This document shows, piece by piece, positions 19,859-23,231 of a stretch of DNA of 50,135 nt. Origin of the DNA: Planctomycetota bacterium (lineage in GTDB: Bacteria; Planctomycetota; UBA1135; UBA2386). Numbering within the stretch: the stretch's first letter is position 1; every line of letters begins with the position of its first letter. The notes under the pieces were generated by a model. That model had not been told where the DNA came from and searched no databases. It was given only the letters and a program-made list of their open reading frames with translations. Where the stretch lies: assembly GCA_016793265.1 (NCBI GenBank), contig JAEUHT010000219.1:1-50135 (forward strand). The letters run 5' to 3'. Made by a program: the position numbers and the translations under genes.

Positions 19859-19961
19859 CAGGGTGGCGGCAGTCTAGGTGGTGGGGCACGCCCCGCCAAT
19901 CGGCTGGCGGCTCCACCATCACGCTTGTGCGCCGGCACCCGACAACTACCCTGTGCCGCCG

Positions 19962-20969
19962 ATGCGCCCGCTGCAGCCGCTGTCCGCCTGGCTCACCCTG
20001 CTGTCCACCGCCTGCGTGGCGGCCCCACAATGGCAAGGGCCGTTGCCGACCAGGAACCAGCACCCGGCCCAGTTGACGGTGATGCAGATGGCCCCCGCCG
20101 CGGCCCGCGTGCTGGCGGCAGGCGCCAGCGCCGCTCGCCTCGACAGCGCCTACTCGAGCCTGTTCCTGAGCGGCAACAGCCCGGTTGCGAACTGGCTCAT
20201 GGACGGCGAGTTGTTGCGCACCGCGGCGAGCGTGCGCCACGGGCTCGGCGGCGGCCTCGAAGTGGCAGCCGAGCTGCCGTTCGCGCACGCCAGCGGCGGC
20301 TTCCTGGACGCGCTGCTGATCGACTACCACGAGCTGTTCGGCTTCCCGGACCAGAACCGCGACACCACCGAGCGCGACCGCTTCCTGGTGTCGGCTCGTC
20401 AGAACGGCAACGAGGTCTTTGGCATGGAGCCTCACGGCGTGCACCTGCTCGACGTGCCGCTGTGGCTGACCTGGCAGGCGCTGGCGCCGACGGCGCACGG
20501 GCCCGGGCTGGCGCTGCGCACCGGCCTCGAGCTGCCGAGCGGCGATGACGGCCGCGGCTACGGCAACGGCGAGTTGGACTACAGCCTCGGCGCCGTGCTC
20601 GAATGGCGCGCCGCCGGCATCGGCTGGTACGGGCACGCGCAGCACACCTTCGCCGGTTCGCCAGCGAGCGCCCGGCAGGTCGGCTTCGACTTCGCCGACG
20701 TCACCACGCTAGGCCTCGCCGCCGAGCTGCCGCTGACGAACGAGCTGCACGCGTTCGCGCAGCTGGCTTTTGAGAACTCGACCCTGCGCCGGCTCGCCGT
20801 GCCGGCAGCGGAACGCGACCAGATGCTGCTGTGGATCGGCGGGCGGCTCGGCCTCGACGAGCAATGGGCGGTCGAGGTCGCCTTCGGCGAGGACCTCATC
20901 GGCAAGGCGTCGCCCGACTTCACGGCCTGGCTCGGGGTGGCATGGCTGCCGGCCGCCGGCGGTTCGTGA
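19962..20969 (+). CDS. DUF3187 family outer-membrane-type protein
   Basis: 335 residues with an N-terminal signal (LQPLSAWLTLLSTACVAAPQ). Family features are GPLPTRNQHPAQLTVMQM near the start, YSSLFLSGNSPVANW, the lipid-facing strand pair VRHGLGGGLEVAAELPF, GGFLDALLIDYHELFGFPD with NRDTTE after it, and late strands such as LGVAWLPAAGG at the C-terminus. DUF3187 proteins resemble small outer-membrane beta barrels; no substrate is known. I chose ATG 19962 because it begins the signal sequence; the longer frame upstream has no signal. The gene ends about 80 bases before the dif-like site. Confidence 0.83.
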   Translation: MRPLQPLSAWLTLLSTACVAAPQWQGPLPTRNQHPAQLTVMQMAPAAARVLAAGASAARLDSAYSSLFLSGNSPVANWLMDGELLRTAASVRHGLGGGLEVAAELPFAHASGGFLDALLIDYHELFGFPDQNRDTTERDRFLVSARQNGNEVFGMEPHGVHLLDVPLWLTWQALAPTAHGPGLALRTGLELPSGDDGRGYGNGELDYSLGAVLEWRAAGIGWYGHAQHTFAGSPASARQVGFDFADVTTLGLAAELPLTNELHAFAQLAFENSTLRRLAVPAAERDQMLLWIGGRLGLDEQWAVEVAFGEDLIGKASPDFTAWLGVAWLPAAGGS

Positions 20970-21047
20970 GGCGCGCCGGGGGACGGGGACAGGGCCAGTG
21001 CGCCGGGTAGGCGCGCGGGGCAACCCGGAGCCCGGCTCCCCCTCCGG

Positions 21048-21075
21048 CCTTAACATAACATATCTTATCAGAACC
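21048..21075. other. dif: dif-like XerC/XerD recombination site
   Basis: A 28-bp AT-rich island in GC-rich DNA between the convergent stops at 20969 and 21141. On the minus strand it reads as an XerC-type arm GGTTCTGATAA (21075-21065), a six-base centre GATATG (21064-21059) and an XerD-type arm TTATGTTAAGG (21058-21048). E. coli dif has arms GGTGCGCATAA and TTATGTTAAAT around a six-base centre. The XerD arm is therefore identical over its first nine bases. The XerC arm matches at 8 of 11 positions, including GGT and ATAA. Arm lengths and the 11-6-11 layout are exact. This is the expected chromosome-dimer resolution site near the replication terminus. Confidence 0.8.
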
Positions 21076-21140
21076 TCAGCGGGGGAGCGAGGCTGGGGTA
21101 GTCAAGCCGCCTCGGCATCGACCGGGCTCGGCGCCCGGCG

Positions 21141-23231
21141 TCAGCTCCTGCCGCGCTTGCCGGCTGGCGCGGCAGTCCCGAGCCGCTGCATCTGCTCGGT
21201 CAGCGCCACCTGCAGGCTGGTGAAGCCTGCGTAGTGCACTGTGCGGGCCGGTACGCCTTGCCCGCGCGCCAGGTCCAGGGCCGGCTCGGTGGTCTCGTGG
21301 CGGTTCCAGTGCAGCAGCAGCAGCATGTCGATGCCGCCGCGCATGCGGTCGGCGATCGCGTTGACGATCTTCTGTGGCGACGTGTAGTTGGTCATCAGCC
21401 ACTCGGCCTGGAAGCCCCAGTCGGCGGCGAGCGCCTCGAGCCGCGGATGGTGCCGGCGCTGGCGTTCGTTGCCGCCGACGACGAGCACCCGCGGCGGCCG
21501 GCCGAGCGCCTTGATCGCCGCTTGCACCGCGGCGCGCCCGGTGTCGGCCGTTGCCGGCGCCTGGTCGTCGAGTTCGAGCAGCTTCTCGATCGCCTGCATG
21601 TCGTCCTTGGCCAGCTCGGGATAGACGCAGGCGACCTCCTCGAGCAGGCCGTGCGCCTGCTGCAGCGCCTCGATGTCCTTGCGTGCCCGCAGCGAACGCG
21701 CCACCGCGACCTGCAGCTGGGCGCGTTCGTAGTCGTGGCCTTCGAGCTCCTCGTAGACGGCGGCCAGTTCGACCTTGATCTCGACGTGGTCCAGCGCCTG
21801 GCCGACGAACTCCTCGTTCTTGAGCAGCTTCTCCAGCGCCTCGAACTTGCCCCGCTGCTGCAGCACTTCGCGCATCTCGGCGTAGGCCGCGCGCGCCTGG
21901 TCGCGTTCGCCGAGCATGTTGTGCGCGGTCAGCACGACGCGCATGGCGTCGATGCGTTGGTCGAGGTCGATGGCGACCTCGAGCACGCGGCGCGCCGCGA
22001 GCAGCGCCGGCGCGGCTTCGCCGAGCGACAAGTACTCGAGGGCGACGAACAGCAGCTGGTCGGCGGACGAACCGCGGCCGACGTCGACGGCGTCGAGGAA
22101 GCGCAGCGCCAGCTTGCGGTCGTGCTGCTTCAGCGCCTCGTGCACCGAGTAGAAGCTCTCCAGGTCCGGTTTGACGGTCTCCAGCGCCTGTTCCATGAGC
22201 CGCAGCGCGCGTGAGGTCTCGGTGGCGTCGGCGAGGCTCAGCAGCGCCGCCGCCTGGAAGAAGCGGGCGCGGTCGCGCAGCGCCACGTCGCGTCCCTCGA
22301 GCCGGCGCAGGCCGGCGATGGCGCGCTCGAAGCCGCGCGCCGCGGCGGCGAGGTCGCCGGTCTCGTAGGCCAGCAGGCTGCGCAGGTAGACCGCCTCGGG
22401 CGCCGCATGTTCGGGTTCTTCGGCGACGTGCTGCAGGCGCGCCAGCGCGGCGTCGCGTTCGGCCCGCTGCTGGCGCGGCTCGACGCTGACCGTGTCGTGC
22501 ATGCGCAGCTCGCCGAGCGCCGCGACCAACGACGCCGAACTGGCCAACATCGGCTGATCCTCTGCCAACGCCTCGGCGCGTTCGGCGGTGGTGATCGCCG
22601 CCTGCCACTCACTGGCGGCCAGCAGGCGCTCGGCCAGCGCCCGGTGGTAGCGCGACTGCACGTCGGCGGGCAACCGGGCGAAGCTCGCCATCGACAGGAT
22701 CTTGCCGAGGATCGAGGCGGTGCTCTCCTGGTCGTCACTGTCGACGCGGCCTTCGAGCTTCGACAGCAGGTCGGTCACCGCGGCATCGACGATCATGTCG
22801 AGTTCGCCGGTGGCGGGCTCGGCGGCGAGGTACTGGATCGCGCGCAAGGCCAGTTTCAGGTCGCCCGACCAGAACAACGACCGCACCACCATCGGCAGCG
22901 CGTTGCCGGCGACCTGCGGATCACCGAGCAGGTCGAGCAGCTTCTGCGGGTCGGCGAGCGTCGCGGCGATACGTTCGCGATCGCCGCGGCGATCGTAGGC
23001 ACGAACGGCGCCGAACAGGCTCCAGCGGCGCAGTTCGCCCGTGGTCTCCGGCAGGTCGAGGTCGAGCAGGGCCCGCGCATAACCGACCAGGAAGCTCGCG
23101 CCTGGTCGCGTCGCTGCACATTGCCAGTAGTCGAGCAGCTGCTGCCGCAAGAGCTCCGGTTTGGCCTCGCCCTTCTCGGCGGAATGGACCTGCTGCAGCA
23201 GCAGACGATCGAGTGCGGTCTCCCAACCCAT
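21141..23231 (-). CDS. TPR-like repeat protein with C-terminal DUF2325-like domain
   Basis: 696 residues, cytoplasmic, no signal. Residues 1-570 are helical repeats, several with TPR spacing (LLAASEWQAAITTAERAEAL; YLSLGEAAPALLAARRVLE; MLGERDQARAAYAEM). Residues about 580-680 form a distinct alpha/beta domain starting RVLVVGGNERQRRHHPRLEA, with AEWLMTNYTSPQKIVNAI, MLLLLHWNRHETTEPALDLA and VHYAGFTSLQVALTE. This strand order and the Gly-Gly and Ser/Asn loops fit DUF2325, a nucleotide-binding-like fold of unknown function. The gene is 77 bases after the 23309-25066 gene on the same strand, probably in one operon. Its 3' end lies beside the dif-like site. Confidence 0.8.
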   Translation of the reverse strand: MGWETALDRLLLQQVHSAEKGEAKPELLRQQLLDYWQCAATRPGASFLVGYARALLDLDLPETTGELRRWSLFGAVRAYDRRGDRERIAATLADPQKLLDLLGDPQVAGNALPMVVRSLFWSGDLKLALRAIQYLAAEPATGELDMIVDAAVTDLLSKLEGRVDSDDQESTASILGKILSMASFARLPADVQSRYHRALAERLLAASEWQAAITTAERAEALAEDQPMLASSASLVAALGELRMHDTVSVEPRQQRAERDAALARLQHVAEEPEHAAPEAVYLRSLLAYETGDLAAAARGFERAIAGLRRLEGRDVALRDRARFFQAAALLSLADATETSRALRLMEQALETVKPDLESFYSVHEALKQHDRKLALRFLDAVDVGRGSSADQLLFVALEYLSLGEAAPALLAARRVLEVAIDLDQRIDAMRVVLTAHNMLGERDQARAAYAEMREVLQQRGKFEALEKLLKNEEFVGQALDHVEIKVELAAVYEELEGHDYERAQLQVAVARSLRARKDIEALQQAHGLLEEVACVYPELAKDDMQAIEKLLELDDQAPATADTGRAAVQAAIKALGRPPRVLVVGGNERQRRHHPRLEALAADWGFQAEWLMTNYTSPQKIVNAIADRMRGGIDMLLLLHWNRHETTEPALDLARGQGVPARTVHYAGFTSLQVALTEQMQRLGTAAPAGKRGRS

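Follow-up and report, generated by a model that had tools for sequence, protein, structure and literature searches.

Does a 28-bp AT-rich sequence between two convergent genes of a planctomycete contig act as the chromosomal dif site, or does it only resemble one? The site matters because the standard 2011 survey missed dif in this phylum, with the prediction of Kono et al. failing in both Cyanobacteria and Planctomycetes (PMC3025954), and its surroundings also reveal likely DNA signposts. The window, i.e. the whole stretch of DNA analysed here, is one entire contig (C245, 50,135 bp) of a high-GC, 81%-complete MAG of 4.9 Mb in 316 contigs, and the PSCyt2/PSD1 proteins found in this genome are consistent with its placement in Planctomycetota.

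A single-copy sequence with the layout of dif

The site, its parts and the two neighbouring genes are as follows.

21048–21075, minus strand: very probable dif site, 28 bp, GGTTCTGATAAGATATGTTATGTTAAGG, single copy in its own genome, aligned across family and phylum
21065–21075, minus strand: predicted XerC-binding arm GGTTCTGATAA, TTC and GATAA invariant in 21 aligned family sites
21059–21064, minus strand: 6-bp central region gatatg, presumed place of strand exchange, 11-6-11 spacing constant in 21/21
21048–21058, minus strand: predicted XerD-binding arm TTATGTTAAGG, TTATG invariant in 21/21, then mostly T-W-A-A
19878–20969, plus strand: DUF3187 protein gene, convergent on the site (PF11383, E=5.6e-28; start codon uncertain)
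21141–23231, minus strand: conserved 696-aa ORF without Pfam match, convergent on the site, relatives 56–80% identical

A first-pass annotation of this DNA had described a 28-bp sequence of 11-6-11 layout at 21048–21075, situated between convergent genes, and both statements are borne out at the exact coordinates. Read on the minus strand, the 28-mer is GGTTCTGATAA-gatatg-TTATGTTAAGG, i.e. two 11-bp imperfect inverted arms around a 6-bp centre as in dif, and it is enclosed by the DUF3187 gene (plus strand, ending at 20969) and the 696-aa ORF (minus strand, ending at 21141). Compared with E. coli dif, 20 of 28 positions are identical. At up to three mismatches the 28-mer is the sole match, both in the window and in the whole 4.9-Mb assembly; the search for a second copy which the annotation had called for returned none, and the many copies that it named as evidence against dif do not exist in this assembly.

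Conservation in family, class and phylum

A sequence of this kind could in principle be an AT-rich dif look-alike produced by chance, for which nothing speaks beyond the limited 20/28 likeness to E. coli dif. In shuffled versions of the window, the 28-mer was absent even at three mismatches (0 matches). Moreover, its core is conserved in 21 aligned genomes while the surrounding DNA has diverged, and this conservation refutes the chance origin, to which we assign a negligible probability. In the alignment (family f1, 21 sequences), TTC, GATAA, the TG closing the centre and TTATG are all invariant, a C or T stands immediately 5′ of GATAA in the XerC arm, and the DNA outside the site varies.

Of the 34 genomes of this family, 25 have exactly one copy (≤3 mismatches to the family consensus), and a reversed-pattern control gave zero matches in the same 34 genomes; the nine genomes without a copy are incomplete or diverged. 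Thus, in its own genome and in the family, the sequence occurs once per chromosome, as is expected of dif. At the same threshold, none of 120 other genomes of the order carried this exact form. Relaxing the pattern brought up variants from further families of the class, for example TCGGATAATGTATGTTATGTATA. Across the phylum, 88 of the 397 genomes sampled gave a match, a few of them by chance as judged from the control columns.

As a separate observation, a low-GC planctomycete family (f19, GC about 0.43; loci L104–L127 among others) has a nearly invariant dif, ACGTCTGATAATATATATTATGTTACAA.

The neighbouring genes shift around the site

Since the site lies between convergent genes, with DUF3187 adjacent in most family contigs and G-rich boxes on its flanks, it might be taken for a regulatory or transcription-stop element of these genes. 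However, the left neighbour changes, and relatives of the 696-aa ORF, which adjoin the site in several genomes, are 9–16 kb away in five others. In genome G019 the DUF3187 gene is 1.6 kb off; in G018 it was not found, and the site (L099, G018:C140) is inverted relative to its conserved neighbours, which could follow from a terminus-centred inversion. Other families have the site without these genes: none of the seven window proteins tested was found beside it there. A terminator, moreover, predicts no switch of GC skew. The shifting neighbours therefore indicate that the conserved unit is the 28-mer and not a gene-bound regulatory element, and we consider the regulatory explanation very improbable.

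GC skew and distance from dnaA

The hand counts of the first-pass annotation had given an excess of G on the left (about 139:123) and of C on the right (about 131:160). The left-hand sign stands (G 140, C 127 at 20688–21047), whereas the right-hand one is reversed, as 21076–21495 holds G 159 and C 144. Over 10-kb flanks the claimed direction holds, with +0.029 to the left of the site and −0.022 to its right. The switch of skew near 21 kb, whose absence had been named as evidence against dif, is present in the window flanks and in the family contigs. Cumulative GC skew across the window peaks at 23071, at a distance of 2.0 kb from the site. GC skew is weak throughout this GC-rich family; the skew argument from the window alone is weak, and the comparative evidence carries the case for dif. 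When the family contigs are oriented from XerC to XerD arm, all 21 of them show greater GC skew on the side of the XerC arm than on that of the XerD arm, and pooling them in a 5-kb profile gives a step from +0.021 to −0.030 at the site.

These measurements cover contig flanks (the own genome being in 316 contigs) and sampled stretches of four complete relatives. In the single-contig relative G322, with the origin near position 0, the skew switches between 3.12 and 3.46 Mb and dif is at 3.23 Mb; G261 fits roughly (sampled switch 3.30–3.48, dif 3.24); in G194 and G303, two of the four, skew is noisy and places the terminus poorly.

Among 12 genera with single-contig genomes, 8 have the site roughly opposite the best-scoring dnaA, at a distance of 0.40 of the circle or more (binomial P about 6e-4). 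The remaining four do not show this for their best dnaA hit, and the test is complicated because several genomes have two dnaA-like genes; in G322, it is the second dnaA-like gene that sits opposite dif. Thus, the site is near the skew switch or terminus by local skew in 21/21 contigs, by the stretches of G322 and roughly of G261, and by dnaA position in 8/12 genera. Dif-like sites not opposite the best dnaA hit were seen in G318, G448 and G268 (one genus, with a dnaA-like gene about 250 kb from the dif-like site), and in G180 and G173; displacement of the origin or a dnaA paralogue is a possible explanation for these five genomes.

Polar words converge on the site

Short G-rich words are distributed around the site with a preferred orientation.

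2068–49145, no strand assigned: polar-word zone (CGGGGGA, GGGGGAG, GGTGGGG, GTGGGGG and similar), orientation flips at the site

A leave-one-out scheme was used, in which the word set was learned from 20 genomes and applied to the omitted one. Words learned in this way from the other 20 genomes point in the window 9 times toward and 7 times away from the site on the XerC side, and 15 times toward and 2 times away on the XerD side, with the best polarity breakpoint at −2353 to +78 bp relative to dif. In each of the 21 contigs, the breakpoint interval includes dif or ends no more than about 1.5 kb away. Leaving out 60 bp around the site, the most strand-biased words (toward:away) are GGTGGTGG (135:10), GGTGGGG (130:5), GTGGGGG (72:1) and GGGGGAG (81:5), and the degenerate words GGTGGKGG and RTGGGGG reach 177:10 and 125:3.

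The same bases in other orders are less polar; the word bias is therefore not mere G richness. Moreover, the bias persists in genes of both orientations, with gene strand assigned by a simple ORF and GC3 rule, and in uncalled DNA, so that gene orientation does not account for it. Short words that aim at dif from either flank and change orientation there form the pattern of KOPS/AIMS. Accordingly, we regard GGTGGKGG, RTGGGGG and GGGGGAG as candidate KOPS, which the FtsK gamma domain may read. The E. coli KOPS GGGNAGGG was also considered as the guiding word and rejected, as in this family it is not strongly polar toward dif (only 38 toward, 21 away). The site is the convergence point of the segregation signals of the two replichores and not necessarily the exact point where forks meet, which has been argued for dif sites in general (PMC3025954).

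XerC, XerD and FtsK genes and the proposed mechanism

A scan for the recombinase genes, suggested by the first-pass annotation, found both partners of a dif system in the genome, XerC on contig C211 (320 bits) and XerD on contig C167 (296 bits). Both scores fall short of the curated equivalog cut-offs, as do those of most control genomes: of 14, only 2 exceed the cut-off for XerC and 4 that for XerD. Over the catalytic domain, XerD aligns with its E. coli counterpart (PDB 1a0p). FtsK is encoded on contig C45 by a single frame of 1237 aa that includes the 4TM, alpha, motor and gamma domains, and the recognition segment of its gamma domain is QRALAVGYTRATRLLE. At the position of E. coli FtsK Asn1296, the own genome and 9 of 10 relatives readable there have T (register from the alignment), which would be in keeping with a different guiding word. 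A split FtsK, prompted by the presence of two gamma genes, was rejected, as the motor gene also has the 4TM domain in its single 1237-aa frame.

Xer-dependent att/pdif sites of mobile elements and plasmids have the same 11-6-11 layout as dif, so that layout is shared with a site of this kind. Yet the sequence occurs once per genome, its own assembly included, the locus is kept over many genera beside DUF3187 and purC-type genes, the Xer-type recombinases found sit on contigs other than that of the site, and both skew and polar words converge on it. It would be surprising if a mobile element or plasmid were the source of the site.

We are thus highly confident that the 28-mer is the chromosomal dif site of this planctomycete. 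Copy number, convergence of polar words, the XerC, XerD and FtsK-gamma genes and the terminus position in relatives all support this interpretation, which the first-pass annotation had proposed. The steps beyond the sequence we infer from the E. coli system. Each of the 11-bp arms would be bound by one recombinase, XerC or XerD. Once a chromosome dimer has arisen through an odd number of crossovers, FtsK, the translocase at the septum, would take its direction from the G-rich KOPS-like words of both replichores and draw the two dif copies together, and its gamma domain would activate XerD. Cleavage and strand exchange in the 6-bp centre would then resolve the dimer.

GGGGAG boxes and a companion gamma protein

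Two further boxes lie directly beside the arms.

21036–21042, minus strand: GGGGGAG box, 5 bp outside the XerD arm, facing away from dif, offset fixed in 16/21 genomes
21081–21087, plus strand: GGGGGAG on the XerC side, mirror of the XerD-side box, facing away from dif, in some relatives only

GGGGAG starts exactly at +28 from GATAA, the seventh base past the XerD arm, in 16 of 21 genomes, with a background of 1.5e-4 per strand-position. On the XerC side, fewer than half of the 21 genomes have CTCCCC, located between −29 and −18. All GGGGAG copies ≤300 bp from the site face away from dif, on both sides, opposite to GGGGGAG over 40 kb, which faces toward dif. The fixed distance of the box suggests a bound protein next to XerD. 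The flanking G-rich pair was also considered as an intrinsic terminator and rejected, as no T run follows it and its left half is missing in most relatives.

A second gene is located directly downstream of ftsK (L044:1465–3129; G000:C45 near 15.2 kb), with a dnaB-like gene after it. Its product is predicted to be a membrane protein; it lacks the motor, has five hydrophobic segments and an acidic linker, and ends in an FtsK_gamma-like domain. Of the 34 family genomes, 30 contain two gamma matches, which mostly lie about 2 kb from each other. The gamma helix of this companion reads DYQEALG, compared with GYTRATR/GYNRAAR in FtsK, and therefore the usual KOPS contacts look lost. Tentatively, and with more doubt than conviction, we suggest that GGGGAG may be a built-in accessory box of dif, possibly docking a gamma-type domain beside XerD or stopping FtsK, with the companion as a possible partner; the pairing of box and companion is speculation. 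If true, this dif would have its own activation element.

Comparison with known systems

In Planctopirus limnophila, which lacks FtsZ and divides in a budding-like manner, ftsK is the only essential gene of the dcw cluster (PMC12283558). With a concrete dif and a set of candidate KOPS, segregation of the terminus under the guidance of FtsK can be put to a direct test in Planctomycetota, and dif also provides an anchor to orient planctomycete genomes and MAGs. No later planctomycete dif or KOPS was found in the full-text literature searched, subscription papers being outside this scope and priority unproven. From the sequence comparisons, which support it strongly, this is almost certainly a real dif accompanied by candidate KOPS words and, judging by that literature, new to the phylum.

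The site is like E. coli dif in its 28-bp length, 11-6-11 layout, TTATGTTAA XerD arm, presence of both XerC and XerD genes, FtsK gamma domain and converging polar words. It differs in the XerC arm, GGTTCTGATAA here against GGTGCGCATAA in E. coli, in the centre gatatg, in the KOPS-like words (GGTGGKGG, RTGGGGG and GGGGGAG, not GGGNAGGG) and in the extra GGGGAG box by the XerD arm. In the low-GC family, the centre of ACGTCTGATAATATATATTATGTTACAA is close to that of E. coli.

Like KOPS, SRS and AIMS, the words of this family are short, strand-biased and aimed at dif, in whose vicinity their polarity is about 95% or higher. This word set was not found in the literature searched, and its binding by FtsK gamma is putative.

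The dif of the actinobacterium Frankia alni, CACGCCGATAATGCACATTATGTCAAGT (PMC3025954), shares CCGATAA before the centre and TTATGT after it with several planctomycete families, while its outer arm bases, its centre and its phylum are different.
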